In this document: in pieces, positions 6,619-55,319 of the stretch
How positions within the stretch are numbered: the stretch's first letter is position 1
Layout: each line of letters starts with the position of its first letter
Assembly (NCBI RefSeq): GCF_029872055.1
Contig: NZ_JARXNQ010000003.1
Coordinates: 62,001-126,000 of the forward strand
Length of the DNA stretch: 64,000 nucleotides
Reading direction: 5' to 3'
Origin: Sulfurimonas sp. C5
Lineage (GTDB): Bacteria > Campylobacterota > Campylobacteria > Campylobacterales > Sulfurimonadaceae
Program-made: the position numbers and the translations under genes
The notes under the pieces: model-generated
What the model saw: only the letters and a program-made list of their open reading frames with translations
Databases searched by the model: none
Told to the model about the DNA's origin: nothing

Positions 6619-7208
6619 GCTTTTTTTCCCTTAGCTTTTGCTAGTTTTTTTAGTAATTTTTGTAGTAGTTCATCACTTGGGTATACGCTTAAAGCACTTT
6701 CAAGATAATTCAAAGCCATCTCGGCAAAATCATTCTCAATCAGTTTCTCTAAAAAATCTATAAAATCATCTCTTTCTGAAATGATCACACGAGTTGAAAA
6801 CATAATGTTTTCAAAAATCTCTTTAAAGTCACCGCCATTTTCTAAAAGTTTTTGAAAATCGCTGTATAAAATCCCATCTTCAAACTCTAGTCTTTCACGA
6901 AGCGGTTGTGTAAATGCTTTGCCTAATTCTTCAAGAGTACCATCCATATTTTTTAGGATCTCACTCATAATTGCATCAGCTTCTTCAGTATCTTCTTCTT
7001 TTAGTATCTCATAATAATCAAATAAAGCCTCAGCTCCAGTCTCTCCACTCAAAGCCATTTCCGACAAAATGACGCCATTATAAGCCTCTTTAGAGTTTGG
7101 AAAGTTCTGTAAAACTTCAGCGAATTTTTCTAGAGCTCTTTTATAGTCCTCTTGCGAAAAACTCTCTTTAGCTTGATCCAATATTTTATGTTTACTAATA
7201 TTTGTCAT
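6615..7208 (-). CDS. TPR-type helical protein, function unknown
   Basis: A 197-aa, acidic, all-helical cytoplasmic protein without signal peptide. Residues about 10-45 (AKESFSQEDYKRALEKFAEVL) look like a tetratricopeptide unit, and a second helical repeat occurs near the C-terminus (EMALNYLESALSVYPSDE). It is sandwiched between the nifU-like gene (15 nt gap) and murE (4-nt overlap), so it is cotranscribed and translationally coupled with murE. I do not recognise a specific role. Confidence 0.7.
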   Translation of the reverse strand: MTNISKHKILDQAKESFSQEDYKRALEKFAEVLQNFPNSKEAYNGVILSEMALSGETGAEALFDYYEILKEEDTEEADAIMSEILKNMDGTLEELGKAFTQPLRERLEFEDGILYSDFQKLLENGGDFKEIFENIMFSTRVIISERDDFIDFLEKLIENDFAEMALNYLESALSVYPSDELLQKLLKKLAKAKGKKA

Positions 7209-7223
7209 TTTTTAATTAAATCC

Positions 7224-7499
7224 TTATAGATTATCTATATCGTTTTCCATCCCAAACGGTACATTTATAACGTTAAGTTCCGGATGGATATCCATTCTTA
7301 ATTGACGTTCAACTCCATATTTAAGAGTAGTCCCACTTGAAGAGCAGCCTACACATGCCCCTTTTAATTGAACATATACATTCCCATTTTTTACTGTAAT
7401 AAAATCGATGTCTCCACCGTCTAATGCTAATGATGGTCTAACTTTTTCGATTACTGCTTTTACAGGATCTATTAGTTCTTCATCTGAAAATGGAATCAT
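7224..7499 (-). CDS. NifU-like (NFU) iron-sulfur carrier
   Basis: A 91-aa NifU C-terminal-domain protein that carries a [4Fe-4S] cluster and passes it to target enzymes. The signature is LALDGGDIDF followed by GACVGCSSSGTTLK, with cluster cysteines C49 and C52. It is a stand-alone Nfu, not the full NifU scaffold. First gene of a unit with the TPR protein and murE. Confidence 0.92.
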   Translation of the reverse strand: MIPFSDEELIDPVKAVIEKVRPSLALDGGDIDFITVKNGNVYVQLKGACVGCSSSGTTLKYGVERQLRMDIHPELNVINVPFGMENDIDNL

Positions 7500-7573
7500 T
7501 TCTATCCTTCTATATTTTTATTATCATAAAATATGATAAAATCACTTAACAAGTGCTAAAAATATACGTTTAG

Positions 7574-8788
7574 CTACTCTTTTAAAGTTAGTGTTTCCGC
7601 TACGTAGCTAGGTTTTCTCATCCCAACCAATATAAAATCGACACTCTCAAGATTTTGTAAAAAATCAAATGCACACTCTTGTAATTTTTTCTCACAATTC
7701 CCAACTAAATTCTTTAGTTGTACTCTTGTAGATATTGAACATTCAAAAGCCACCATTGCTCTGTAAGAGACTAAAAATTTATCTATGTATGTCAAGAGAG
7801 TTTCAATTACTCCTTCACTTACATTTTCAATCATCTTGGTTATATTTGGAAGGACTTGAGAGTTTACAAACAATTCGTAATCTCCGATCCATCCAAATTT
7901 ATGTTTATTTGCATCCATCTGCTCTACCAGATTAAAAAGAGGCTGCAGTAATTCTGTGTCACATACTTCTAAGAGTTCGTTTAGGTTTTGATAATAATCT
8001 ATCGGCTCATCATAATCAGCCAGACGAAACATTAAACCGTTATGAAAAGCATTCAGTGGACGGTTTACAAGTACTCTCAGACCATTCTTTTTTGCCCATT
8101 TAGCGCACTCTACTCCCTCTTTTTCCAACAAGTTAATTGGTAATTGCAGGGTTGTGAAACTATGCTTGTCATTACCTGCTTCTATTGCTGCATTTTGTGC
8201 AAGTGTGATCAAATCTTCATAAGGTAAAAAATCATCTGCTGTACTCTCTTTTGAAAAAGAGTTTGAACTGATTCCATACGATCCGATTGTATTATTTGCA
8301 ACTTCTTGTTCTAAAGCTACAAACACTTTGTAGATACGCTTATAAAGTTCTTCTAATCTTTCCTCTTTTGCAATATCTTTATTAATTGCATCATAAATAT
8401 AGTATTCAGGATTATGCAATAGATAACAATCTATCTTATTTAACTCTAATCTTTCTAGTGATCTGTTTAACTGATCACGCATAAACGAAGGTGCTATTGA
8501 ATGATAACATTCAGGAGAGTATTCCACAACATCTTCAAAAGGCTTCTCTTGATGAAGTTGCATATTTGTGCCTTGAATGTAGCCAAACTTGCTTACAATC
8601 TCAACATCCCGATATTCCTCTTCAATAGAGCCTAAAGCTTTTGCAATTGCACGCTCAGCCCCACCATCTGTATAGTTAGATGATGTATCGATTAGTTTAA
8701 TACCTGAATATAACGCTTCTTTTAAAGCTTGAATATGTAAAGGATTTTGATCACTTACTCTGTAAGTTCCAAATGCGAAACTACTCAT
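7574..8788 (-). CDS. Aldo/keto reductase family protein
   Basis: The 404-aa protein has an N-terminal (beta/alpha)8 AKR domain. The catalytic tetrad is recognisable: Asp34 in LIDTSSNY, Tyr39, Lys67 in IVSKFGY and His in YLLHNPE. The C-terminal part beyond about residue 280 is longer and more helical than in standard 320-aa AKRs and ends with the nucleotide-site-like FILVGMRKPSYV. Substrate unknown. An AAGGA ribosome site precedes the ATG. It is a separate unit downstream of the alpha operon terminator. Confidence 0.82.
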   Translation of the reverse strand: MSSFAFGTYRVSDQNPLHIQALKEALYSGIKLIDTSSNYTDGGAERAIAKALGSIEEEYRDVEIVSKFGYIQGTNMQLHQEKPFEDVVEYSPECYHSIAPSFMRDQLNRSLERLELNKIDCYLLHNPEYYIYDAINKDIAKEERLEELYKRIYKVFVALEQEVANNTIGSYGISSNSFSKESTADDFLPYEDLITLAQNAAIEAGNDKHSFTTLQLPINLLEKEGVECAKWAKKNGLRVLVNRPLNAFHNGLMFRLADYDEPIDYYQNLNELLEVCDTELLQPLFNLVEQMDANKHKFGWIGDYELFVNSQVLPNITKMIENVSEGVIETLLTYIDKFLVSYRAMVAFECSISTRVQLKNLVGNCEKKLQECAFDFLQNLESVDFILVGMRKPSYVAETLTLKE

Positions 8789-39868: not shown

Positions 39869-40381
39869 ATGTTAAAAAATCTCTTAGTAGCAGCATTTGC
39901 GATGTTATTTATAGGCTGTACGGGTAATGTGATCGTAACGACACCGGAACAACTACCGAATGTACAAGGGGAGCAAAATGCAACGGAGCAAAAAGATGGT
40001 ATGACTATATCGTTGTTCAGACTTGAAAACTATACAGACACTCCAAGAGCGGGCATGAGAGCGGGAAATATCTTAGAGGGTATTTTAAAAGCTAAAGGCT
40101 ACACAATCATTTCACATGTAAATGATGCATCTTATTCTTTTGCTAAAGCAGCAAAAACAGCTCAAGACGATCGTGCTACGTACTTCCTATACGGCGGTGT
40201 TAGCGAATGGAGATATAAAACTGGTATAGACGGAGAACCTGCCGTAAGTATACAACTCAGTTTATACAACACAAAAACTCAAGAACTTGTTTGGAGTGCT
40301 ACAGGCTCAGACAGTGACTGGGGGAATGGTTCAATAGGAACTACAGCCCAAGATCTTTTAATGGAGATGGTTGAAAAATAA
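39869..40381 (+). CDS. pelC: PelC, periplasmic outer-membrane lipoprotein of Pel export
   Basis: The 170-aa lipoprotein (lipobox LFIGC, Cys17) matches PelC, which forms a ring beneath the PelB pore in P. aeruginosa and guides the cationic polymer. The FRLENYTDTPRAGMRAGNIL stretch is diagnostic, followed by TYFLYGGVSEWRYK and LVWSATGS. Length is the usual one (about 172). It is the first gene of this locus, whereas in P. aeruginosa pelA and pelB precede pelC. Confidence 0.88.
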   Translation: MLKNLLVAAFAMLFIGCTGNVIVTTPEQLPNVQGEQNATEQKDGMTISLFRLENYTDTPRAGMRAGNILEGILKAKGYTIISHVNDASYSFAKAAKTAQDDRATYFLYGGVSEWRYKTGIDGEPAVSIQLSLYNTKTQELVWSATGSDSDWGNGSIGTTAQDLLMEMVEK

Positions 40382-41742
40382 TGCCAACCCCGAAAAAAAG
40401 AGTTCAAGCTAAATCAATTCTGACTTTTATAAGAGAGTATATACAAAAATATGCTTATGTAGAAACATTGATTATTGTAACTCTTTATGTTGCCATGGGC
40501 TTTTTAATCAATCCTGATGATGTTTGTTTATTAGGTTATAAAGTTCCCTATCTTGTAATTTTACTTGCCGTTATTACACTGTTTCACGGTTTTGAAAACG
40601 GAATTTTTGCGGTGAGTGTCATCTCTTTGGTCATTTGGGCTTTTTATCCATCTTTTCAGTATGTCGATTTCCTCATAGCACTCTTGATGACACTTATCTT
40701 TAGCCAGTTTCATTATTATTGGACATCCAGAATTAGAGAAGCGGAAGTTGACTCAAACTACAAATCAGACAAACTGTCAGAACTTTCTCGTGCTTTTTAT
40801 ACACTGAAGATTTCCCATGACCAACTTGAAAAAAATTATGTTATCAAGCCTATGAGTATTCGCAACTCTATCAATCACATCATAGCTGCAAACGAAAAAA
40901 TATTACTTGATGAACATGTTAAAGACAAAGAGCGTGCATATAATAAAAACTTTTTGGAACTGATTGAAAAATCTTTTAGCATGCAAAGCGGTTTACTTCT
41001 TTATCTCAAAAAGAATAAACCAAATCAAATTTTTAATGAAGAAAATGTTGACCTTATTTCGATTAATATCCAGGAATCTCTCAGTATAGAAAAAATATTT
41101 AAAAACTATCTAGTCGATAAAGCTATAGCAAGGAAGTCTCCCGTTTATGTCAGTGATGAATATGGTGAACCAACTCTTTTCACTGAAGAAGCAGACAATA
41201 AATATGTAGCTGCAATACCTGCTGTAATTAACGGGAAAGTTGTTTCTGTACTTGTTATTGAGAGAATGCCTTTTATGTTTTTTAACAGAGAAAATCTCAC
41301 ATCTATTACAATTTTACATGAGTATTTCTCGATCGAAAATAAAAAATCTACAATGTCCATTTCACTTGAAGGTTTTGATCTTGTTGAAGATAAAGATTTT
41401 AAATTTGAGATAGCTAGACTTAAAGATCTCAATAAAAACTTTCATGTAAACTCGGTTGTTTTAGTTTTACGTATAGATAATGAATTGCAAACTGCCAGAG
41501 TCTATCAAAAAATTGAACGTATGCTGCGTTCTCTTGATATGATAACATTAGTACATAATGAAGATTATTACTATATCACTTTACTTTTACCGCTACACGA
41601 CAAAGCAGCTGCAGCAGGATTTTTAAAAAGAGTTCAAAATAATTTGACACAAGAAAAAGATCAAGATTTTGAACATATGAGTTTTGATATGAATGACTTG
41701 CCTCTTCTGTCAAAATATTATAGAGAAGATTATGGAAAATAA
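40381..41742 (+). CDS. pelD: PelD, c-di-GMP receptor of Pel synthase
   Basis: The 453-aa inner-membrane protein has about four TM helices (residues 25-115), a coiled-coil/GAF region and a degenerate GGDEF domain. The GGDEF position reads HNEDY (392-396), and an intact I-site R383-S-L-D386 lies exactly five residues before it. Arg417 sits where the second c-di-GMP contact (Arg402 in P. aeruginosa) is expected. It should therefore bind c-di-GMP without cyclase activity and switch on polymer synthesis. One-base overlap with pelC. Confidence 0.88.
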   Translation: MPTPKKRVQAKSILTFIREYIQKYAYVETLIIVTLYVAMGFLINPDDVCLLGYKVPYLVILLAVITLFHGFENGIFAVSVISLVIWAFYPSFQYVDFLIALLMTLIFSQFHYYWTSRIREAEVDSNYKSDKLSELSRAFYTLKISHDQLEKNYVIKPMSIRNSINHIIAANEKILLDEHVKDKERAYNKNFLELIEKSFSMQSGLLLYLKKNKPNQIFNEENVDLISINIQESLSIEKIFKNYLVDKAIARKSPVYVSDEYGEPTLFTEEADNKYVAAIPAVINGKVVSVLVIERMPFMFFNRENLTSITILHEYFSIENKKSTMSISLEGFDLVEDKDFKFEIARLKDLNKNFHVNSVVLVLRIDNELQTARVYQKIERMLRSLDMITLVHNEDYYYITLLLPLHDKAAAAGFLKRVQNNLTQEKDQDFEHMSFDMNDLPLLSKYYREDYGK

Positions 41743-42844
41743 AGTTTTCACTCAGTTTGATCTAAACTTTTTAATAGTGCTTGTCATCCATACACTTATA
41801 AGTCTTGTAATAGCTTTTTTTCTTGCACGATATGCAAAGCAAAGATTTATCACAAACTCTTATAAAGTCAATAAAGAAGACCTTTACAGACTACAAGATG
41901 TTATGAATGAAAGTAAACTTTATAAATATCTTTTTAGAGTTTCCCTACACAAAAACAACTTTAGATCGAGTCTGCTTTATTTTTTCCTTTTTAACTTTTC
42001 TATGCCTATACTCGGTTATTTTGTCTCTATTCTTTTAGCAAGACTGATGGTAAATGTTGAGTATGAGGAAAAAGCTGCCACTACCAATATTTTAAACCTT
42101 GATGAATTCGGTATATCTTTTTTGGAAGTAGAAAGGGTCTTTGGTGAAGGCTCACTTAATGACTTAATACATAGTAAATATGCTCCAAAATCAAAAAAAT
42201 TAAGAGCACTTAACGTACTCTCTGCAAATATCTCCCCTGCCAATTTGAGGATTATCAAACAAACGCTTTCAAGTACGGATGATGAGATTAGAATGTTTGG
42301 ATACGCGATCATAGACAAAGCGGAAAAACATCTTGCAAAAAATATTAATCTTGAAATAGAAAAGCTCAAAGTTGCCGATGCCACTGCAAACTTAAAAGAT
42401 GCAGCTGAAGCATGTAAGGAATTGGCATTTTTATACTGGGAGCTTCTCTATACAGAACTCTCACATGAAAGTCTCAACGAAGAGTTCTTGGACGAAGTTG
42501 AAAAATTTGCACTCTTAAGCCGACGCCATTATCTACTGATTTTAAATGAAATTCCGCTTGAAAGCCATGATGAACATGTAGTGATCACAACAAACCTTTC
42601 AAAACTACATCTTCTTCTCGGCAGAGTTTATATGAAAAGAGATTTATATGAGCATGCACTGACAGAGTTCATTACCGCTCAAGAATTAAGGGATGATGAT
42701 ACCAGTTTTGTATTACCGTATATCGCAGAAGTTTATTTTCTTACTGGTAAATACAAGATTGTTGCATCAATTCTTTCAAGGCTCAAAACTCTTGGAATTA
42801 ATTCAACAATCTATCCGATCTTAGAACAATGGAAGAGAGCTTAA
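41732..42844 (+). CDS. pelE: PelE, membrane/TPR subunit of Pel synthase
   Basis: The 370-aa protein has two N-terminal TM helices (FLIVLVIHTLISLVIAFFLA and LLYFFLFNFSMPILGYFVSI) and a helical, TPR-like C-terminal half (RVYMKRDLYEHALTEFITAQ). This is the PelE layout: PelE joins PelD, PelF and PelG in the inner-membrane complex. ATG 41732 is preceded by AGAGAAG and overlaps pelD by 11 nt. Assignment rests on topology and gene order more than on sequence. Confidence 0.78.
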   Translation: MENKVFTQFDLNFLIVLVIHTLISLVIAFFLARYAKQRFITNSYKVNKEDLYRLQDVMNESKLYKYLFRVSLHKNNFRSSLLYFFLFNFSMPILGYFVSILLARLMVNVEYEEKAATTNILNLDEFGISFLEVERVFGEGSLNDLIHSKYAPKSKKLRALNVLSANISPANLRIIKQTLSSTDDEIRMFGYAIIDKAEKHLAKNINLEIEKLKVADATANLKDAAEACKELAFLYWELLYTELSHESLNEEFLDEVEKFALLSRRHYLLILNEIPLESHDEHVVITTNLSKLHLLLGRVYMKRDLYEHALTEFITAQELRDDDTSFVLPYIAEVYFLTGKYKIVASILSRLKTLGINSTIYPILEQWKRA

Positions 42845-42847
42845 AGG

Positions 42848-44566
42848 ATGTCAAATAAGATTATTTTTCCAAAAAGTGACAGTGTTGATATTATGCTTTT
42901 TTCCGAAGGGACATACCCTTATATAAAAGGTGGTGTTTCAAGTTGGATTCTTCAACTTATGAAAGGCTTGCCTGAGTTTACTTTCGGTGTTTGCTTTATC
43001 GGTGCACAAGACACTATAGACGGGAAAAAAATGAAAATCAGTTATGAATTTCCGCCTAATCTAAAACATTTGGAAGTACACTATCTTTTTGATAACAAGG
43101 ACATGCCTACTCCCAAAAAAATAGAGGGAGATGAAAAAGGTTTTGAAGCTATTCATGAACTACATGCAGGCTTTAAAAAAGACAAATTTCAAATCCCGAA
43201 AATGCTACAAGATATCTCTTTTTATACTCAAGACGTCACTTTTGAAGATTTCTTATTTTCAAAAAGAGCATGGCAATTCATTGATGAAACCTATTCAAAA
43301 AACTGTCCGGATGTTCCTTTTATCGATTATTTTTGGACTCTAAGAAATATCCATAAACCGATTTGGCTTTTAGCGAATATCGTCGATAAGCTTCCTAAAA
43401 CAAAAATATATCATTCCCCTTCAACAGGGTATGCAGGTTTTTTAGGTGCCCTTGCCTCTTATCATGCCAATAAACCATTTTTTCTTACGGAGCACGGTAT
43501 TTATACAAGAGAAAGAAAAATAGATATGTTCTCGGCAGATTGGATTGAGTTTAAAAAACCAAGCTTACTGCAACAACCAGAAGAATACAATTACATCAAA
43601 CGTATGTGGGTAAATTTCTTTGATAAGATAGGACTATTTTGTTACAATCGTTCCAATTACACTTTTTCACTTTTTTCCGGTGCTCAAAGAATCCAGATCA
43701 GTTACGGAGCAGATGAAAATAAATCTTTCGTTATCCCTAACGGTGTAGATGTTGAAGGTCTCGGTGCTACCATAAAAGAGAGACTCGAAGTACCAAAGCC
43801 TATTATTACGCTAATCGGAAGGGTTGTTCCGATTAAAGATATTAAAACATTTATCCGTGCAATCAAAATTGCTTCAATTACTATTCCTGATATAGAAGGT
43901 TGGATAGTAGGTCCTGTAGAAGAAGATATGGAATATCTTGATGAGTGTCAGCAAATGGCTATTTCTCTAGGCTTAAAGCAAAAAAAACAGATGTTTAACA
44001 ACAATAAAAGCGATCTCTCTTTAGACGAACTCGTTGAACACAGAGATAAAATCAAATTTTTCGGACATAGTAACATCAAAGAGATTTTACCAAAGTCTGC
44101 CCTGCAAACACTTTCCTCTATCAGTGAAGGGATGCCTTTAGTTATTCTGGAAGGTTTTGCCGCAGGCGTTCCTTGTGTAGCAACAGATGTTGGAAGCTGC
44201 CGCGATCTGATCGAAGGCGGAATCGATGATGCAGACAAAGCTATAGGCTTAGCAGGTGCTATTACAGGGATTGCAAATCCTGAAGCTCTTGCGGATGAGT
44301 ATATAAAGTTTCTCACTTTTGAAAACGGTTTATGGAAAAAAGCTCAAGAAGCAGGTCTAAACCGTGTAAAAGAATATTATAGTCAAAATGCCTTTTTACA
44401 TCAGTATAAAGAACTGTATGATGAAGCAAAAGAGCTCACTTGGGAAGAGTTAAGTAAAAGAGTATGTCCTTATTACATGCCAAAACAGGTTCCTTATCCC
44501 AAAGTTATTTTACGAAGATTTCCAATTGTTAAATTTTTGACAAATCTACAAGAAAGGAGTGCATAA
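42848..44566 (+). CDS. pelF: PelF, cytoplasmic GT4 glycosyltransferase
   Basis: The 572-aa enzyme polymerises Pel from a UDP-sugar. The N-terminal DUF3492 has LFSEGTYPYIKGGVSSWI. The GT-B C-terminal half carries TLIGRVVPIKDIKTFI, the nucleotide-sugar motif SEGMPLVILEGFAAGVPCVA (EX7E) and TDVGSCRDLIEGG. Length is close to other PelF (about 507) with a modest C-terminal extension. It lies between pelE and pelG as in all pel loci. Confidence 0.92.
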   Translation: MSNKIIFPKSDSVDIMLFSEGTYPYIKGGVSSWILQLMKGLPEFTFGVCFIGAQDTIDGKKMKISYEFPPNLKHLEVHYLFDNKDMPTPKKIEGDEKGFEAIHELHAGFKKDKFQIPKMLQDISFYTQDVTFEDFLFSKRAWQFIDETYSKNCPDVPFIDYFWTLRNIHKPIWLLANIVDKLPKTKIYHSPSTGYAGFLGALASYHANKPFFLTEHGIYTRERKIDMFSADWIEFKKPSLLQQPEEYNYIKRMWVNFFDKIGLFCYNRSNYTFSLFSGAQRIQISYGADENKSFVIPNGVDVEGLGATIKERLEVPKPIITLIGRVVPIKDIKTFIRAIKIASITIPDIEGWIVGPVEEDMEYLDECQQMAISLGLKQKKQMFNNNKSDLSLDELVEHRDKIKFFGHSNIKEILPKSALQTLSSISEGMPLVILEGFAAGVPCVATDVGSCRDLIEGGIDDADKAIGLAGAITGIANPEALADEYIKFLTFENGLWKKAQEAGLNRVKEYYSQNAFLHQYKELYDEAKELTWEELSKRVCPYYMPKQVPYPKVILRRFPIVKFLTNLQERSA

Positions 44567-45939
44567 TGGCCGGTATAGGATTTGAATTAAGAAAAATTCT
44601 ACGTGAAGACAGACTTCTTTCTCTTGGAAAAGTATACGGCTATTCTGCAATACTCAGTTCGGGACCATGGGTTATTTCGATCATCGCTATTATATTAATC
44701 GGTTTTATCAACCTTTCAAACTTCGGTGAAGTAAAAGATGCTTTTAGATTTCAAGTCGTTATCACCTATGCAATTGCTTTGGCATCGAGTTTAATTATTA
44801 CAGGAATCTTGCAACTGCCTTTTACCCGTTATGTTGCCGATCTGATCTTTAAACACAAAGAAAATGAGATACTACCATCTTACTTCGGTGCCATATTCTT
44901 GGCATGGGGGCTGGGTTTAATATTTATTGTACCTCTGTATATATGGGCATTTAAAGGTATGGCACCCTCTTTTATTGTAGGGACAATACTTACCTTTTTA
45001 ATTTTATGCGGTGTTTGGATTTCTAGTATTTTGGCTGCGAGTTTAAAGTTTTACTCGCAGGTTGTGTGGGCATATTTACTCTCATATACTTTTATTGTAG
45101 TTGTATCTTATTCTTACGGAAATTCTATTGAAACACTTGTATATATATTTTTTATCGGAAATGCTATTTTATTTTCTGTTTTAATGGCACTTATCATCAA
45201 AAGTTACCCTTCTACAATCTTTATGAAGATAAATTTCTTTTTGGATAAAAATTTCTATTGGACACTCGCGATAGCAGGCCTTAGCTATAACCTCGGTGCA
45301 TGGATCGATAAGTTTATATTTTGGTACCATCCTGCAACGGGGCATGCTATTATCGGAAAGCTTAATGCGTCTGTAGTATATGATATGCCTATCTTTCTGG
45401 CATATTTGTCTATTTTACCAGGAATGGCAATCTTTTTCTTCAGACTTGAAGCCGACTTTGCCGAAAAATACGATCTTTATTACGATTCCGTAAGAAGCGG
45501 AGGAACTCTGGGGCTTATCAAAAAATATAGAAACGACATGACATCGATTGTAAGACATGCCATCCATGAGATTTTAATGGTACAGGGAATTGTGGACATT
45601 ATCCTGTTTTTAACGGCAGACAAACTCTTTGCAGCTTTAAATATTTCGACACTCTATCTTGGACTCTTTTATATTTTAACAATCGGAGCAATGTTACAAT
45701 TGGCATTTATGTCCATCTTGGCAATTTTATATTATTTAGATAGGAAAAGAGCCGCTATGTGGTTGGCTATTGCATTTTTTATCCTCAATGGACTTTTGAC
45801 CCTTCTATCGATAAATATGGGAACGGCGTTTTTTGGTTACGGATATACACTATCCCTTTTAATAGTTTTTGCTCTTGGACTTTTAGTTATCAGAGAAGAG
45901 ATGAACAGGTTGAACTATGAAACATTTATGCTGCAGTAA
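44566..45939 (+). CDS. pelG: PelG, Wzx-like inner-membrane transporter
   Basis: The 457-aa protein of about 12 TM segments starts MAGIGFELRKILREDRLLSL, the conserved PelG N-terminus, followed by YSAILSSGPWVISI and, later, YNLGAWIDKFIFWYHP. It is thought to move the polymer made by PelF across the inner membrane. The ATG overlaps the pelF stop by one base, with AAAGGAG upstream. Confidence 0.92.
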   Translation: MAGIGFELRKILREDRLLSLGKVYGYSAILSSGPWVISIIAIILIGFINLSNFGEVKDAFRFQVVITYAIALASSLIITGILQLPFTRYVADLIFKHKENEILPSYFGAIFLAWGLGLIFIVPLYIWAFKGMAPSFIVGTILTFLILCGVWISSILAASLKFYSQVVWAYLLSYTFIVVVSYSYGNSIETLVYIFFIGNAILFSVLMALIIKSYPSTIFMKINFFLDKNFYWTLAIAGLSYNLGAWIDKFIFWYHPATGHAIIGKLNASVVYDMPIFLAYLSILPGMAIFFFRLEADFAEKYDLYYDSVRSGGTLGLIKKYRNDMTSIVRHAIHEILMVQGIVDIILFLTADKLFAALNISTLYLGLFYILTIGAMLQLAFMSILAILYYLDRKRAAMWLAIAFFILNGLLTLLSINMGTAFFGYGYTLSLLIVFALGLLVIREEMNRLNYETFMLQ

Positions 45940-48478
45940 ACTTTTAACTCTTTTACTACTATTTGTAGTTACACTTAACGCTTCGCTCAACGACAAGAGT
46001 GCTATTGTTTATCTTGGAGAAAAGATATCATACCCTATGGTAGGGATACACAACTATATCATTGTTGATCCGAAAAAAACAAATGTATATACACACGGTT
46101 TTGATGTGTATAACAAAAAAATTTATGCCCGAATTGTACTAAACGAGATTTCAAATACCGATATATTGCTGGAAAATCTTTTAGATTTAAAACATCAAGG
46201 ATTTCAAAACTTTTTTTTCGATCTACAAAAACCTGTAGATACACAGAATTTTACAAATTTTTTAGAACGATTGAAAAAAGATTGCGCCTTCAGAGATACA
46301 AAAATCATTCTTCATTCTGATGAACAAAAGGTACTTGCAATAGCATATCCGTATGTTGATACACTGTTACTCTATAATGCTTTAGAAGATCCAAACCTAC
46401 AAACAAAAATTAAACTTTATAAAAACGGTTCCAAAGATATTATTGATGTGGAAACTGCTAAATCTGTGAAGCTAGGTCAAGTCATAAAACTTGGATTTAT
46501 CCCATACTTAACCTCTTTAAGTATGCAGAGATACGGCACTTCCTCAAAAAATGCCTTTAAACGGGAAATTTTAATACTGATAGATGAGAGTGCTACCGAT
46601 AGAATGGAATCTTCGGCTCACCAATATGGAGCGATTCCTCTGGAGTATCAAGGATATATCCAATCTATACGCAATATTCATGATGGTCTGCCTTCTCCTG
46701 ATCAAATGGAGCAATACGCCGGTGTTGTGATTTGGCTTACGGTTGATTATGATTCCCCTTCGACCCTAATTTCGTGGGTGAAAGAAGTTGTTCAGAAAAA
46801 AATACCGGTAGTTTTCGCTCATTCATTCGGATTTAATGTTTCAGGAATGTACCTCAGCCAGCTTGGAATTGAGACATATGACGGTGATGAGAAAGCATCC
46901 CAAAAAATCATAGCAAAAGATTCTATGATGGACTATGAAATAAAAACACCGCTAAGTCATAGTAACTTTTATTTTCAAGCTCCTAAAAACTCTCGTGAAC
47001 TTGTTACATTCCAAGACAGTAACGGACTTACATCAACAACTGCCGCTATTACACCTTGGGGTGGTTATGCAATCGATACCGCTTTCATGACTGAAGTGGA
47101 TGGTGAAAATATCTGGGTCATCAACCCATTTAAATTTTTCAAAGAAGCACTTCGCCTGCAAGATATTCCGGTTCCTGATCCGACTACAGAAAATGGAAAC
47201 AGACTCTTTTTCACACACGTAGACGGTGACGGTATTATGAATGGTGTAGAGTATGATTCTGAACTAGTCTCCGGTGATATTATCTACAGTGAAATTCTAA
47301 AAAAATACAACTTCCCCCATTCAATTTCTGTTATCGGTGCCGAAATCATGCCTAACGGCGTTTACCCGCAAGAATCAAAAAGACTTTTAGAATTATCATC
47401 AAAAATATATGCATTAGAGAATGTCGAACCGGCTACGCATACGTTTACTCACCCGTTTTTCTGGGGTGAGATCAAAAATGGCAACCTTATAGAGGAGTAT
47501 AGACTAAAACCGCCTGCTTATAAGTTTTCACTGGATTATGAACTCTCAGGTATGCTGGAGTATATTCAAGACAATCTTCTTGAGAAAAATGCTACCAAAA
47601 AAGCACAAACTGTTTTTTGGAGCGGAGATTGTACGCCAAGAACAAATGCCCTAAAATATGTGTATCAACACCATATTTTAAATATTAATGGCGGGGATAC
47701 TACTATCAATAACTCTGCACCTTGGCTTGCATTGGTTGCACCCTTTGGCTTAGAGCGTGATGAATACTACCAGATCTATACGGGTGCCCAGAATGAAAAT
47801 GTCTTTACAAACGATTGGATAGGGCCGTTTTGGGGTTTTAAAAAAGTTATTCAAACTTTTAAACTCACAGATTCACCAAAACGTTTAAAACCTATTGATG
47901 TTTATTATCATCTTTATTCAGGCTCTAAAAAAGCTTCATTAAATGCCTTACGTTATGTGTTTGACTGGGTATTAGAACAAAATACGATGCCAATATTTAC
48001 TTCTGAATATATTCCGAAAGTTATGGATTACTATACGGTCTCTATTGCTAAAGACAACGAAGGCCATTGGCTCTATGATGGGATGAAAGATCTAAAAACA
48101 CTGAGAATTGAGAAAAAAGACGCAGGTATTGATTTACAACATTCCAAAACTTCTCTTGGCATTGAACATTTTGAAGATCATACATACATTGCACTTGATC
48201 AAAGCACAAAACATCTGTTAAAAGCTCTGCCGTCACAAACACTTAATGATGTTTATTTAATACGGGCAAACGGAAAAATTAAAAACCATATGGATACTGC
48301 GATTCACAAGGTTTATGAATTTTCATCCCACGTACCTTTGAAAATAGAATTTCATGTACCGAAGAACTGTACACTGAGTTCTATTCCTCAAAGCAATGTA
48401 AATATATCAGATCACAATATAATTAAGTTAGAATATCAATCTAGTAAAAAGGCGACTATAGATGTACGATGTCAATAA
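45917..48478 (+). CDS. PelA1, PelA paralogue with degenerate hydrolase and intact deacetylase motifs
   Basis: The 853-aa exported protein (signal peptide to about residue 22) resembles PelA. The N-terminal hydrolase-like region (about 25-195) is some 60 residues shorter than in the second copy; Tyr153 (LLLYNAL) aligns with its putative catalytic Glu190, and Lys105 with Asp133. A flavodoxin-like region (205-400) follows, then the deacetylase with FTHVDGDG (Asp436) and HTFTHPFFWG (His508, His512). It probably deacetylates Pel but no longer hydrolyses it. Overlaps pelG by 23 nt. Confidence 0.82.
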   Translation: MKHLCCSKLLTLLLLFVVTLNASLNDKSAIVYLGEKISYPMVGIHNYIIVDPKKTNVYTHGFDVYNKKIYARIVLNEISNTDILLENLLDLKHQGFQNFFFDLQKPVDTQNFTNFLERLKKDCAFRDTKIILHSDEQKVLAIAYPYVDTLLLYNALEDPNLQTKIKLYKNGSKDIIDVETAKSVKLGQVIKLGFIPYLTSLSMQRYGTSSKNAFKREILILIDESATDRMESSAHQYGAIPLEYQGYIQSIRNIHDGLPSPDQMEQYAGVVIWLTVDYDSPSTLISWVKEVVQKKIPVVFAHSFGFNVSGMYLSQLGIETYDGDEKASQKIIAKDSMMDYEIKTPLSHSNFYFQAPKNSRELVTFQDSNGLTSTTAAITPWGGYAIDTAFMTEVDGENIWVINPFKFFKEALRLQDIPVPDPTTENGNRLFFTHVDGDGIMNGVEYDSELVSGDIIYSEILKKYNFPHSISVIGAEIMPNGVYPQESKRLLELSSKIYALENVEPATHTFTHPFFWGEIKNGNLIEEYRLKPPAYKFSLDYELSGMLEYIQDNLLEKNATKKAQTVFWSGDCTPRTNALKYVYQHHILNINGGDTTINNSAPWLALVAPFGLERDEYYQIYTGAQNENVFTNDWIGPFWGFKKVIQTFKLTDSPKRLKPIDVYYHLYSGSKKASLNALRYVFDWVLEQNTMPIFTSEYIPKVMDYYTVSIAKDNEGHWLYDGMKDLKTLRIEKKDAGIDLQHSKTSLGIEHFEDHTYIALDQSTKHLLKALPSQTLNDVYLIRANGKIKNHMDTAIHKVYEFSSHVPLKIEFHVPKNCTLSSIPQSNVNISDHNIIKLEYQSSKKATIDVRCQ

Positions 48479-49517
48479 TGACGAACAGGTTTATGTTGTT
48501 ACTTATAAAGAGCTTCTCTTTACCCTCGTAGTCTTTATTATTATCCTTTTCGCACTCTTTCCCAAGGGAATCTTAAAAGATCAGATCTCTGCAGATAAAT
48601 CAAATTACGATCTCAGTATGGTATATCTAAAAGACCTTTTAAAACATAGTCCTGATGATGAATCGCTACAGATACTATTGCTAGAGAAAAGTGTCCATGC
48701 AGGGGATATTAATACCGCAATGCAGCTCTCAAAAAAACTTCTATCTAGTGAAAATGAATATGTACGTCATAAAGCCTTATTATTTGCCTATGAAAGTAAA
48801 AAAGCAAAATATTATTCTCTTGACGATGTTGCAAAGCAAAGACCTCTGTACCCTGAACTTCAAAGACTTTTCAATACTATTTACAAAGATAAACTCTATG
48901 ATACAGACATAGAAAAATGGTATAAAGAAGCGGTCTTTGCACAAAACCAGAAAGCGGCGTATTTTTTCCTGCAAAAACTTTTACAACAAGACCCTAGAAA
49001 CGTAAAATATTTGACAGACGGTTACTATCTTTCACTTGATCTTTATAAGAGATCGGATTCTGTTAAATATATCACTGCCCTGGAACAATATGATTCTAAC
49101 AACTCTTTAAAATGGGCAATGGATAAATATACTATTTTTATGCGTTATAAAGACTATAAAAATGCCGAGCTTCTGTTAGAACACTATGCAAAACAATCTC
49201 TTGACATGCAACTCAAGCTTGCAAATTTTTATTTGATGATTCAAAAATATGAAGATGCTTCAAATACTTATTTGGAACTTTTTTATATTACTAAAGATGA
49301 AAAGGTTAAAAAAGAGTACCTTGTTAAATCAATTAGGGCATTACAGTCAGGAAATCTGTTAAAAAAAGCTGCATTTCTCGTACACCATTATGAATCGCAA
49401 TATATTCACGATCGTGATATGAGAAAGTTTTTCTTGAAAATATACTTAGCGGCAGGTGAACTTGAATACGCATCAGAATTGTCCAAAAAAATCTTAAAAA
49501 ACGAGAATAAATTATGA
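48462..49517 (+). CDS. Inner-membrane-anchored TPR protein, probable N-terminal half of split PelB
   Basis: The 351-aa protein has one TM near residues 15-36 (YKELLFTLVVFIIILFALFP) and then only helical, TPR-like repeats (KNAELLLEHYAKQSLD, YEDASNTYLELFYITKDEK). In P. aeruginosa PelB these features form the N-terminal part of one 1193-aa chain. Here it is a separate gene overlapping pelA1 by 17 nt and the pelB-like gene by 4 nt (ATGA). The split-PelB idea is inference. Confidence 0.65.
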   Translation: MYDVNNDEQVYVVTYKELLFTLVVFIIILFALFPKGILKDQISADKSNYDLSMVYLKDLLKHSPDDESLQILLLEKSVHAGDINTAMQLSKKLLSSENEYVRHKALLFAYESKKAKYYSLDDVAKQRPLYPELQRLFNTIYKDKLYDTDIEKWYKEAVFAQNQKAAYFFLQKLLQQDPRNVKYLTDGYYLSLDLYKRSDSVKYITALEQYDSNNSLKWAMDKYTIFMRYKDYKNAELLLEHYAKQSLDMQLKLANFYLMIQKYEDASNTYLELFYITKDEKVKKEYLVKSIRALQSGNLLKKAAFLVHHYESQYIHDRDMRKFFLKIYLAAGELEYASELSKKILKNENKL

Positions 49518-52500
49518 AGAAAATAATTCTATTATTCCTTTTTACTTTGGCATCTTTACTTGCTGAGACAAACCAAGCATGCTGTACTACCGTTCAATTG
49601 ACTAGCTATGTAAATACAAATAAAGATCTGAAATTTATACAAAACAATTATCCTAGTGAATGTACAACAATGGATATTAACGGTTATGTAACCGTACGAT
49701 GCGGCTGTTTTGACTCAATTTCAAGTGCTCAGGAGAAACTTAAAGAGTTAAAAGTTGAATATCCTCAAGCACAACTTGTTAAAAGTTATAAATATCGTTT
49801 TGATGAGACCTGTCCAACAAATCAGGAAGTTATAGCTCCAACACAACAACAAGTACCGATGGGTAAATCGGAAGAGGAAGAATTACGCTTGATGTTACAA
49901 GTTTTTTTATATAAAACAGATCTAGAAAGCGCTTTTCAAGTTGCCCAAATAGGATATGAGCAATACCCTAATTCCTACTATTGGAATGAAAAAATGGCAA
50001 CAATTTGCCAATGGACAGATCGACCTGCCCGTGCGATGAAACATCTTCAAAAAATGTATAAACTAAAATATAATCCAATAATCGAACAAAAACTGATTGA
50101 TTACGGAAAAGCCACATACCAATATGAAAACATTGAACCATATGTACTCCGCAGGGTAAAAAAAGATCCTACTGAAGAAAATATTGATCTTCTAATCACA
50201 ATTTACAAAAAGACAGGATTTCCTGAAAAAGTTATTGCAATTTTAGATGAAGAGTATAAAAAAACAAAAAATCCTCTGCTTCTTACAAAAGCTCTTGAAC
50301 TCGCACTCGAGATGGGAGATCTCGATCTTGCAAAAGAGTATGTAGAAATTATCGAATTACATAAACCATATTCAAAAGAAAATGCTGCTCTTGTTTCCAG
50401 ATATTATTACATCTTAAGAGACATCCATACAGCCTATCTATCCCTAAGCGATGTTCATAACAGCACTCTTTTAGAAGACACAAACAGTACTCAGGAAGTA
50501 CAATATTTTGAGCTTAAAAGTGACCTCGGCTGGTATTTACAAAAAAATCTTCCTGCCGCACAAGCTTCAAAAATTTTGATTGATGCAGATATAGGAAGAC
50601 TAGCAGATTATGAAAGGGTAGCAATTGTATACCCAGATATAAACAATACTTACGCAGCACAGGCTGTTAAAGAGGGATACATCAAATATAAACTCCCTTA
50701 TATGTTTTTTAGTTACGCTAATGATGCGATCAACAAGAATAAATTTGAAGATTTAAACAAACTCTTACAAAAAATAGATGAAGAGAACTCTCCTCTTACT
50801 CAAGAAGCTATGTACTGGCTTATCAAAGCAAAAGTTTATAACTACTATAAACAGCACGATCTGGAAAAAGCTGCGTTACAGCAAGCTCTTGCGCTCTCAC
50901 CATACAATACGGAAGTAAAAACTGCTCTTTTATGGCATTTTATGGAAATGAATGACGTAAACAACATAAAGTTAGTTCTCCTAGAACTTGAAGAAAAAAG
51001 TGATATCACACCTTCTCTTTACTTCTCTTTGGCATCAGCATACTTTTACATTCATAACATTGACAGAGCTTCTTATTATATGAGTTTGCTCGATTATGAG
51101 CAGGATATAGTCACGCAAACTATAGACTATAGATTTTTACAAGCCTATATCTATCAAGTGCAAAACAGAGATGAAAATTTTCAATCAAAAATACGTGAAA
51201 TTTTTACGATCTTAAAACAACAAAGAAAGAAAAATTTAACGCTTAAAACAAATAATGATCATCTCACTAACTATTTCAGTGCAGCTATGTATGTGATGCA
51301 TTCTGATCCATTTGAACAAGAGCTTGAAGATGCAAAACCATACCTCAAAAAGAAAAACTACGACGAGTTAAAATACTCTTGGAGTATGCAAAAAGAAGCT
51401 TTTGAAAAAAGCCACGAGATCTATGAACAAACAGTCGCTCCTGAACGTTGGATGCAGTTTTCAAATGCAATGGTACTGCAACACCATACCAATACAGAAA
51501 ATATGATTGACTGGTATCTCTCAGAGCTTTCTCAGGGTGATGCTTCTGCACAAGCCCAAGAAGACGGACAAGTTTCACTGGCACAAACAATCAATTATAA
51601 CTTCTTCGATCAAAACAGTTACAGCCAAAATCTCTATATTCAACAAATTGACCTTAGTAAACTTCGCAGTGACACGCTTGACCTAAAACTATCCCGTTAC
51701 ATCAGAGATCCTCTTGTACAACATTACTTTACTGCTAAAAACAGCTCTTATATAGGGGATGATTGGTATGTTTTAAGTGGCTTTGGTTATTATCAAAACC
51801 GTTCATCCGACAGTAATGTTTTAGTAAATGTACCTAAAAATACATACGATATCTCACTTGGTGTAAAAAAATTAACTGAACGTGCATCTATTGAACTTGG
51901 TCTGCTTTATAACCACGATATGAAAAATTATTTCTCATTTTTCATGGATACCAGCTATCAGTTCTCAACCGATTTTAGAGCTGGTTTGGAGATTGGTAAA
52001 AATGTAGAAGCGGATGAGAGTACACAGTTGTATCTTGGTGGGAAAAAAGATCACGTAACTCCTAAACTGATCTACAATATTCTAAATTCAACTTCAATTG
52101 AAGCAAAATATGAATTCAGCCGTTTTTACTCTCAGGACAATGTAGACCTCGGTAAAGGGAAATATTTCAACATTAGTGTGAACAGACAACTTCGTAATGG
52201 ATATCCGGATATGCGAATCGGTGTATTTTACGATAGAGGAATTTATAATGAAACATCAGCTACCCACGGTATTATTGACACATTACAGATTGAACCGTAT
52301 CAAGTACTTCCAAATAACTTTTACAATATAGGAATGAACTTTTCTTATGGAGAGATGAATAGAAACCTCTACACTAGAGTATGGCACCCTTATTTTGAAA
52401 TTTATCCTTATTATAACTCCGATATCAACGATTTTACTTTTGGTCTCAATGCCGGTATCGGTGGAAAAGCATTTCATCAAGATCATATGAATATAGGTGT

Positions 52501-52594
52501 TTCTTACAGCGATTCAGTTAATGGTATCGGAGGTAAAATTCTTGAATTTTATATCAACTATCAATTTATGTATACTCTAAGTAAGGAAATTTAG
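49514..52594 (+). CDS. pelB: PelB-like outer-membrane protein with SPOR-like, TPR and barrel domains
   Basis: The 1026-aa protein has a signal peptide (MKKIILLFLFTLASLLAE). Residues about 25-95 resemble a SPOR domain: CTTVQLTSYVNTNKDL, YVTVRCGCFDSISSAQEKLK. A long TPR array (about 120-560) follows and then a beta barrel of about 330 residues ending NYQFMYTLSKEI. TPR plus terminal barrel is the PelB export-pore plan, but the SPOR-like N-terminus is not in P. aeruginosa PelB, and the N-terminal membrane anchor is missing, perhaps supplied by the preceding gene. Confidence 0.8.
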   Translation: MKKIILLFLFTLASLLAETNQACCTTVQLTSYVNTNKDLKFIQNNYPSECTTMDINGYVTVRCGCFDSISSAQEKLKELKVEYPQAQLVKSYKYRFDETCPTNQEVIAPTQQQVPMGKSEEEELRLMLQVFLYKTDLESAFQVAQIGYEQYPNSYYWNEKMATICQWTDRPARAMKHLQKMYKLKYNPIIEQKLIDYGKATYQYENIEPYVLRRVKKDPTEENIDLLITIYKKTGFPEKVIAILDEEYKKTKNPLLLTKALELALEMGDLDLAKEYVEIIELHKPYSKENAALVSRYYYILRDIHTAYLSLSDVHNSTLLEDTNSTQEVQYFELKSDLGWYLQKNLPAAQASKILIDADIGRLADYERVAIVYPDINNTYAAQAVKEGYIKYKLPYMFFSYANDAINKNKFEDLNKLLQKIDEENSPLTQEAMYWLIKAKVYNYYKQHDLEKAALQQALALSPYNTEVKTALLWHFMEMNDVNNIKLVLLELEEKSDITPSLYFSLASAYFYIHNIDRASYYMSLLDYEQDIVTQTIDYRFLQAYIYQVQNRDENFQSKIREIFTILKQQRKKNLTLKTNNDHLTNYFSAAMYVMHSDPFEQELEDAKPYLKKKNYDELKYSWSMQKEAFEKSHEIYEQTVAPERWMQFSNAMVLQHHTNTENMIDWYLSELSQGDASAQAQEDGQVSLAQTINYNFFDQNSYSQNLYIQQIDLSKLRSDTLDLKLSRYIRDPLVQHYFTAKNSSYIGDDWYVLSGFGYYQNRSSDSNVLVNVPKNTYDISLGVKKLTERASIELGLLYNHDMKNYFSFFMDTSYQFSTDFRAGLEIGKNVEADESTQLYLGGKKDHVTPKLIYNILNSTSIEAKYEFSRFYSQDNVDLGKGKYFNISVNRQLRNGYPDMRIGVFYDRGIYNETSATHGIIDTLQIEPYQVLPNNFYNIGMNFSYGEMNRNLYTRVWHPYFEIYPYYNSDINDFTFGLNAGIGGKAFHQDHMNIGVSYSDSVNGIGGKILEFYINYQFMYTLSKEI

Positions 52595-52595
52595 T

Positions 52596-55319
52596 TTGAA
52601 AAAAGTTATATTTCTTTTAATATTTTTTATTACCTCTTTATCAGCATCTTTAGAAGATAAAAGTGCCATTGTTTATTATGGGGAAGATCTTTCTTATCCT
52701 CTAGTCGGTATTCATGACTATATTATTGTACAACCTGAGCACATAAATACCTATACTCATGGCTTTTCACTTTACAAAAAAAATATCTATGCATACATAA
52801 GTATTGGAGAGGTTGATCGTAACACTACAACTGCAAAAGCTATAAATACTTCATGGATCGTTGCAGAAAACAGTGCTTGGAAAAGTGATGTTCTTGATAT
52901 TAGAAACCAAAAATATCAGGAATTCATCTTTGCAAAACAGATTGAACCATTGCTAAAACGAGGATTTAAAAACTTCTTTTTTGACACTCTGGACTCTTAC
53001 CATCTCTATGCCAAAACTATGCAAGAGAAAAAACAATGTGAACAATCGTTAATTTCTTTTATCCGTGAATTTCATACACGCTATCCAGATGCAAAACTGG
53101 TCGTAAACCGTGGATTTGAGATTATAGATGATATTCATGATTCAATAAATGCTGTTTTATTTGAATCTTATTACAAAGGGCTTCAAGGGGAAAAACTGGA
53201 GTATACGGATGTCAATGACAGTTCGAGGGAGTGGCTTGACACGTATTTAAATAAAATCAAATCATATAACCTCGACATCATTGCCGTTGATTATCTTCCT
53301 ACACTAGATGGTGCTGATGCACTTGTTGCAAAACTAAAGGACAAAAGGTTTATCCCGTATGTTTCCAATAAAGCACTCGACACCTACGGAAAAAGTTCTA
53401 AAAATGCTATACAAAGAGAAATTTTAACGCTTGTTGATGAGAGCAAACTAGACAAATCGCTACAGAGTGCCCATAGAAATGGAGCTACTGTTTTTGAATA
53501 CCTTGGCTATATACAAAAGTTCTCCGACATTAATAAAAACTTACCCGATCCCTCTTCTCTACACAGATACTCAGGTGTAGTCATTTGGACCGAGAACTAT
53601 GTAAAAGATCCGGAAAAATTTTTAAAATGGCTCCTTGAATTGAAAAAACAACATATCAAATTTGTTTTTGTCGGTAACTTTGGTTTTGAACTCCAAGGCA
53701 ATGAACTTGATCTACTAGGTATTAATGTTGAAAAGAATAATACACAAAAAAGTTCTATTATCAAAAAAGACACAATGTTCGATTTTGAGATAGACCCCCC
53801 TATGTCTTTTAATTCCGTACTTATTCATGTAAAAGATGCACGAAAGCTTTTAACTTACCAATATCAAAATGATAAAATTTCAACACCAGCAGCGATAACA
53901 TCATGGGGTGGATATATTGTTGATGAAGCATATTTAACTGATTTCGATCAAGAAGAAATTTGGACAATAAACCCGTTTCAATTTTTTGAACAATCACTCA
54001 AATTAAAAAAACTGCCTGTTGCCGATCCTACTACTGAGAATGGGAAACGTTTACTTTTTACACACATTGATGGTGATGGGATTATGAATAGAGTCGAAGG
54101 TGATTTTGGTGAGTTTTCAGGGGATGTAATTTTAAATCAAATTCTCAAAAAATATCAAATCCCCCACTCTGTTTCTATCATCGGTGCCGAAGTCGATCCA
54201 AACGGCTTATTTCCAGAGCTCTCTCCACAGCTTCTCAAGATTACAAAAAAAATCTTTGCACTTAAAAATGTAGAACCTGCATCTCATACATTTACACACC
54301 CATTTTTTTGGGGGAAAATAGTTGATGACAATTTAGCACCTGAATATAGGCTCAAAGTTCCAAACTATCAATTTTCTCTCAATAGAGAACTCAAAGTTAC
54401 GCTTGATAATATCAATGAAAAATATCTGCCGAAAAACAAACTGCCAAAAGCAAATACTATTTTTTGGAGTGGGGATTGTGCTCCGAGAGAGAATGCTTTA
54501 GAGTTTATCTATAAACACCATATTTTAGCAATTAATGGAGGAGATACAACTATCTCAAAAATACACCCTTGGATGAGCCGTATTGCCCCTTATGGTATTA
54601 AACGTGGCGATTATTATCAAGTTTATACAGGAGCACAAAACGAAAATGTGTTTACAAATGACTGGCTTGGCCCATTTTGGGGCTTTAAACGTGTAACACA
54701 AACGTTTGAACTAACAAACTCGCCAAGACGTTTTAAACCAATAGATATCTATTACCATCTTTACTCAGGTTCAAAGCGTGCATCATTAGAAGCTTTAAAG
54801 TATGTCTTTAACTGGGCACTGAAACAAGATGTGATGCCTATCTATACTTCAGAGTATATTCCTAAAGTTATGGATATGTATGAAGTTTCTATGGCAAATG
54901 AAGGGAATAACTGGCTTATTAACGGTATGAAGGATCTTAAAACCATCCGTTTTGAAGACTTTACTCAGGCCATAGATATGAAAAATTCGCAAGGTACTAT
55001 AGGAATAACTCAGTTTGAGAATCACACCTATGTCAGTTTGGATCAAACACAAAAACATCTGCTTAGACTCACATCGAAAGATACAAATAAAATCTATATG
55101 GTTTCAAGTAACGGTAAACTTCTAAACTACAAAGAAACAAATACGACAAAAAGCTATCAGCTTCGTTCTTATGTTGATTTAGATCTCACTATGCACGTCG
55201 ATAAAGAATGTCGCATAAAATCGTCTCCAAAAGCAATGAAGCTTTTACAAGACGGCAATACTATAACTCTTCAATATAAACATGTGAAAGAGGCGACTAT
55301 TACACTAGAGTGCAAGTAA
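52596..55319 (+). CDS. pelA: PelA2, full-length PelA hydrolase/deacetylase
   Basis: The 907-aa exported enzyme (signal peptide to about residue 17) has a GH-type TIM barrel (20-255) with FFFDTLDSY (Asp133) and AVLFESYYKG (Glu190), matching the PelA catalytic Glu region. A flavodoxin-like linker and a deacetylase with LFTHIDGDG (Asp492) and HTFTHPFFWG (His564, His568) follow. PelA deacetylates and trims Pel in the periplasm. It starts at TTG 52596 with TAAGGA upstream. It is a paralogue of the gene at 45917, separated by the pelB genes. Confidence 0.9.
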   Translation: MKKVIFLLIFFITSLSASLEDKSAIVYYGEDLSYPLVGIHDYIIVQPEHINTYTHGFSLYKKNIYAYISIGEVDRNTTTAKAINTSWIVAENSAWKSDVLDIRNQKYQEFIFAKQIEPLLKRGFKNFFFDTLDSYHLYAKTMQEKKQCEQSLISFIREFHTRYPDAKLVVNRGFEIIDDIHDSINAVLFESYYKGLQGEKLEYTDVNDSSREWLDTYLNKIKSYNLDIIAVDYLPTLDGADALVAKLKDKRFIPYVSNKALDTYGKSSKNAIQREILTLVDESKLDKSLQSAHRNGATVFEYLGYIQKFSDINKNLPDPSSLHRYSGVVIWTENYVKDPEKFLKWLLELKKQHIKFVFVGNFGFELQGNELDLLGINVEKNNTQKSSIIKKDTMFDFEIDPPMSFNSVLIHVKDARKLLTYQYQNDKISTPAAITSWGGYIVDEAYLTDFDQEEIWTINPFQFFEQSLKLKKLPVADPTTENGKRLLFTHIDGDGIMNRVEGDFGEFSGDVILNQILKKYQIPHSVSIIGAEVDPNGLFPELSPQLLKITKKIFALKNVEPASHTFTHPFFWGKIVDDNLAPEYRLKVPNYQFSLNRELKVTLDNINEKYLPKNKLPKANTIFWSGDCAPRENALEFIYKHHILAINGGDTTISKIHPWMSRIAPYGIKRGDYYQVYTGAQNENVFTNDWLGPFWGFKRVTQTFELTNSPRRFKPIDIYYHLYSGSKRASLEALKYVFNWALKQDVMPIYTSEYIPKVMDMYEVSMANEGNNWLINGMKDLKTIRFEDFTQAIDMKNSQGTIGITQFENHTYVSLDQTQKHLLRLTSKDTNKIYMVSSNGKLLNYKETNTTKSYQLRSYVDLDLTMHVDKECRIKSSPKAMKLLQDGNTITLQYKHVKEATITLECK

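Follow-up and report, generated by a model that had tools for sequence, protein, structure and literature searches.

A divided PelB bearing a SPOR-like module in Sulfurimonas sp. C5, and the same module on other outer-membrane exporters of Campylobacterota

In published models, PelB is a single chain spanning both membranes, and the description of the Pseudomonas protein (9h80, PMC12141448) contains no SPOR module. PelA docks on P. aeruginosa PelB at residues 332-436 (PMC12141448), the docking TPRs being TPRs 9-14 (PMC12022489). Fission of pelB has already been published for aquatic thermophiles (PMC7112194, Fig 5iii), in a paper whose text mentions neither Campylobacterota, nor a SPOR module, nor the break point. 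A SPOR-bearing pore is also known, the Legionella secretin LspD, which has a SPOR-like domain ahead of its N0 domain, and another secretin is anchored to the cell wall by OutB (PMC9239104). Among the papers searched, none dealt with a SPOR-bearing PelB or with pel in Sulfurimonas. At issue is the way in which synthase-dependent polysaccharide exporters, with their tall periplasmic arms, meet the cell wall. Here we describe a PelB that is divided into two chains at a functional boundary, where a module of wall-binding type is often found.

The analysed stretch (the window) consists of 64,000 nucleotides of contig NZ_JARXNQ010000003.1 of Sulfurimonas sp. C5 and contains a complete pel operon on the + strand (39869-55319). 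The genes form a single tight run, in which adjacent genes either overlap or are separated by no more than 3 bp, in the order pelC-like lipoprotein, pelD, pelE, pelF, pelG, pelA1, pelB1, pelB2 and pelA2. The first gene (39869-40381) is a putative pelC, named by its position, which is the same in related pel loci, and by a weak PF13036/TIGR02722 match; it overlaps pelD (40381-41742; PF16963 PelD_GGDEF, E 7e-14) by 1 bp. These are followed by pelE (41693-42844), recognized by operon position and by orthologues in related pel loci, the glycosyltransferase gene pelF (42848-44566; NF038011 PelF, E 1.6e-173) and pelG (44566-45939; PF16933, E 1.6e-126). The two pelB genes are flanked by PelA paralogues. 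Upstream lies pelA1 (45917-48478; 853 aa), in which the glycoside hydrolase domain is eroded and the deacetylase part kept; a domain search of its protein gave no GH114 match, and alignment to pelA2 showed that stretches of the hydrolase domain are missing. Downstream lies pelA2 (52596-55319), a full PelA with GH114-type hydrolase and deacetylase (PF03537, E 2.1e-15). A pair of eroded and complete pelA genes was also seen in loci L028, L030, L035, L040, L149 and others, and in loci with a single pelA the gene is of the complete type.

A sequence-only reading of this DNA had proposed that PelB is divided here into an anchored TPR protein and a barrel protein. Both genes are present, PelB1 at 48462-49517 and PelB2 at 49514-52594 (both + strand), overlapping by 4 bp. 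PelB1 (351 aa) starts with an uncleaved hydrophobic helix at about residues 18-34, its TM anchor, continues with TPRs (PF14559, TPR_19, E 4.7e-8) and corresponds to about residues 1-285 of P. aeruginosa PelB. PelB2 (1026 aa) begins with a signal peptide, followed by the SPOR-like module (residues 20-96; 49571-49801, + strand) with conserved cysteines C24, C50, C63 and C65. A linker (residues 97-118; 49802-49867, + strand), with pLDDT <50 in the full-length model and likely to be a flexible tether, leads to the TPR region (residues 119-700; 49868-51613, + strand; PF13429, E 1.7e-27), which is helical in the model and includes the equivalent of the PelA-docking TPRs. The C-terminal part is an outer-membrane barrel (residues 719-1019; 51668-52570, + strand; PF24604, E 6.9e-36). 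The full-length model (10 sequences, pLDDT 77, pTM 0.39) contains a separate module at 23-92, helical repeats at 120-700, of which 636-716 are unreliable, and 16 strands at 719-1019; because the pTM is 0.39, the relative placement of the domains is unreliable.

The best fold match of the barrel was PelB itself (9h80; Z 28.5, rmsd 2.9 over 309), in agreement with the sequence-only reading, followed by PgaA (Z 22.0) and BcsC (Z 21.6). The 16-stranded barrel, the TPR scaffold, the operon partners and a TM anchor ahead of the first TPRs are all shared with P. aeruginosa; the difference is that the Pseudomonas protein is one chain and here there are two. The anchor is on PelB1 and the barrel is on PelB2, which has a cleavable-type signal peptide, so that no one chain holds both; the equivalent of PelB is PelB1 and PelB2 together, neither protein alone. 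A separate complete pelB, which had been considered as a sign against the division, was rejected for this assembly, in which no second PF24604 barrel was found in a 99.97%-complete genome.

The genes of 51 other pel loci, from one draw across the phylum and one across the family, were typed and the window was added. PelB1 and PelB2 were separate genes in 48 of the 50 assessable Campylobacterota loci (window counted); a split PelB is what this phylum ordinarily has and no peculiarity of this genome, and the fission itself is shared with the aquatic thermophiles, as far as shown in Fig 5iii of PMC7112194. A frameshift or artefact behind the split was rejected in view of this recurrent two-gene layout and the 4-bp overlap. 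The other two loci (L029 and L043) encode fused PelB chains without the SPOR-like module, colinear with PelB1 (1 to about 310) and then with PelB2 (from about 319), with the break at about 315. In L032 and L038, counted among the split loci, PelB is spread over three genes (TM-TPR, TPR and TPR-barrel).

Residues 128-523 of PelB2 align to residues 294-684 of P. aeruginosa PelB (9h80) and the PelB1 profile aligns to residues 177-245 (E 2.5e-4), with the break at about residue 285. From these alignments and the published PelA site it follows that PelB is cut just upstream of the PelA-docking TPRs. The protein is thus divided between the TPRs on the inner-membrane side and those that dock PelA.

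The module had been read as SPOR-like from its sequence. In a single-sequence scan it scored only 13.5 bits against Pfam SPOR (PF05036), below the cut-off of 21, and for this reason the label required profile and structure evidence, which bore it out. Comparison of 23 modules with 19 canonical Campylobacterota SPOR domains by hhalign gave a probability of 90% (P 1.5e-6) over an alignment from VQLxS to VQVGSF, against 0.1% for a control of the module with a TPR alignment. The module profile also matched proteins with canonical SPOR domains, namely RlpA (L072) and an NlpC/P60 protein (L073). One family member, at the N-terminus of the AlgE-type protein of L086, reached 96 bits with the module profile and lies above the Pfam SPOR cut-off (23.7 versus 21 bits). 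The AlphaFold model of the module, made from 12 window and related sequences, has the order beta-alpha-beta-beta-alpha-beta (pLDDT 82). With VIA-align against 999 chains, the SPOR domains of CwlC, DamX, RlpA and DedD accounted for five of the top six fold matches (Z 6.2-6.9, 2.6-3.5 Å over 67-81 residues). Rank 1 was 6ozd, an exported Burkholderia protein; apart from this, matches other than SPOR domains had Z ≤4.3. A Z of 6.2-6.9 alone is weak, and what counts is the clustering of SPOR domains at the top. Foldseek likewise returned a SPOR domain as its best match (CwlC, 1x60, E 0.025), with none at E <0.001, and searching the PDB sequences with profiles of the module gave no useful match. The module folds and aligns as a SPOR domain, and with little remaining doubt we regard residues 20-96 as a diverged SPOR domain, homologous to the canonical ones.

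The denuded-glycan site of RlpA is formed by Q270, F274, R302, R309 and R311 (PMC6895207). Equivalents of Q270 and R311 are kept in 22 and 23 of the 23 modules, respectively, and are shared with the SPOR domains of RlpA, DamX, DedD and CwlC (PF05036), together with the fold and the profile similarity. In contrast to canonical SPOR domains, the module has no R309 equivalent, this position being T, A or S in all 23, and it has four conserved cysteines and a C-terminal TYKYRF motif. The F274 position is variable and an R302 equivalent could not be assigned. With the R309 equivalent replaced and the F274 position variable, the module may bind denuded glycan differently or no longer bind it.

All 23 modules have a cysteine at position 7 and another at position 48, and positions 33 and 46 co-vary, being C/C in 21 modules and A/Y in two, the AlgE-type members. 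Positions 33 and 46 lie opposite each other in the predicted beta2-beta3 hairpin, and as they face each other and are lost together, the two cysteines probably form a disulfide. Pairing of C7 with C48 is not claimed, these being expected far apart on parallel neighbouring strands of the SPOR fold. Such cysteines would suit a disulfide-rich, ligand-free handle for the folding or assembly of outer-membrane proteins; nevertheless Q11, S14 and R45 are also conserved, with no obvious role in a disulfide, and the barrels of closely related PelB2 proteins do without the module, and we hold this explanation to be very improbable.

The distribution of the module was followed on a tree of 49 PelB2 proteins, from which the module columns were left out. 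The module was present in 33 of them, and the fewest changes needed were 10, an approximate number since this is a quick tree with several long branches. Within the window's family, 32 of the 42 PelB2 carry it. Presence is all-or-none, with scores of either at least 60 bits or at most 2.4 bits. The nearest PelB2 relatives of the window, those of L028 and L030, with identities to it of up to 72%, have no module, their signal peptide and TPRs simply lying nearer each other, and these present and absent states provide natural pairs for studying the effect of the putative wall anchoring on an exporter. The module is optional and is separable from the split, many split PelB2 being without it. By eye, no link was seen among the pel loci between the module and tandem pelA genes, either state occurring with or without the module. 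One PelB2 (L166 7248-10646) has two SPOR-like modules in tandem.

In PelB2 the module stands precisely where the chain is broken, beside the PelA-docking TPRs. This placement, the loss of the R309 equivalent and the ability of SPOR folds to bind a sugar polymer would all agree with a module that binds a partner other than peptidoglycan, such as Pel, PelA or the C-terminus of PelB1, and so forms the joint between the PelB halves. The many split PelB2 without the module imply that no such joint is required, and the module also occurs on an AlgE-like exporter, an MMPL-linked barrel and a TolC-like protein, without any PelA or Pel link. We therefore consider a partner-binding joint unlikely.

In the phylum sample of Campylobacterota, the module profile gave 15 strong matches, with the module N-terminal on its host proteins, which were PelB2, an MMPL-linked barrel-like protein, an OprO/P-type porin, AlgE-like barrels and a TPR protein. 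The MMPL-linked host has about 525 aa and lies between a LolA-like/DUF1329 protein and an MMPL transporter, in the genome of the window (L080) and in L081-L083; its barrel-like character is deduced from sequence, the barrel itself having no Pfam match. The OprO/P-type porin (PF07396, E 4e-42) is encoded directly upstream of pelC in L084, and this host was also found in L050. AlgE-like alginate export barrels with the module were recognized by PF13372 in L068 and L087 and by similarity in L086. In L085 the module is on a TPR protein in a pilus-secretin locus. In L054 it is on a protein beside a PilZ-HlyD protein; this host has no Pfam match and was judged to be TolC-like from its sequence and the HlyD neighbour. 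The module is thus a portable cassette on several kinds of outer-membrane exporter, whose common feature is a pore that has to act across the wall together with machinery of the inner membrane. Its occurrence on unrelated exporters makes it look like a putative shared device for fastening such pores to the wall.

The usual hosts of canonical SPOR domains are division or wall-cutting proteins, SPOR domains are known to direct proteins to the septum (PMC6895207), and this genome encodes RlpA plus one more canonical SPOR protein. By analogy with FtsN, DamX and RlpA at the septum, the module might direct Pel export to the division site or to a pole. We find this rather improbable, as the glycan-site residues are altered, all the kinds of exporter that carry the module would end up at one place, and LspD suggests that a SPOR domain on a pore may serve anchoring. 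Like PelB2, LspD is an outer-membrane export pore whose N-terminus carries a SPOR-type module (PMC9239104); LspD is a protein secretin, whereas PelB2 is a polysaccharide barrel, and the module of PelB2 belongs to a separate family that bears cysteines and occurs on exporters of several classes.

The best reading of the module is a portable SPOR-type tether of outer-membrane exporters to peptidoglycan, and binding to the wall seems reasonably likely. Such a tie would fit both the recurrence on other exporters and the LspD precedent. In the mechanism we propose, PelB1 would receive acetylated polymer from PelDEFG and pass it to PelB2 across a non-covalent TPR-TPR joint; PelA would deacetylate the polymer at PelB2, and the barrel would export it. 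The SPOR module would grip peptide-poor glycan and so fix the place and height of PelB2 in the periplasm; on this proposal PelB2 would be held in this way because the two membranes are no longer linked covalently by one chain. Anchoring would not be strictly needed after the split, since many split PelB2, including the nearest relatives of the window, have no module, and for the same reason of close relatives without it the module would be helpful rather than essential. Taken as a whole, this combination of handover and anchoring is an explanation that we favour slightly. A broader idea, which we put forward only tentatively and consider somewhat doubtful, is that in Campylobacterota one SPOR-type cassette may act as a general adapter tying unrelated exporters (Pel, alginate-like, OprO/P-like porin, MMPL-linked barrel and TolC-like) to peptide-poor peptidoglycan, with the export sites of several envelope polymers set by wall remodelling.

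Several features were observed around the module-bearing genes. In L080 (7480-14263, G000:C2), genes for the LolA-like protein, the SPOR-module protein and the MMPL transporter and a further gene follow one another and make up a candidate system for the export of lipids or lipoproteins. Neighbours of the AlgE-type genes (L086-L088) encode a GDP-mannose/UDP-glucose dehydrogenase, a family 2 glycosyltransferase and a PilZ-HlyD protein. In the same three loci the AlgE-type barrel is preceded by a protein of 860-890 aa with a weakly SPOR-like N-terminus, and in L086 this protein has a beta-helix match. In L085, a TolC-like protein and a TPR protein (237-1892 and 6511-7647) both start with SPOR-like stretches. 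A PycTM (Pycsar effector-type) protein is encoded directly upstream of the module-bearing gene, heading the pel operon, in L084 (8843-10354; PF18967, E 1e-16), L050 (2100-3647) and L054 (5493-6953).
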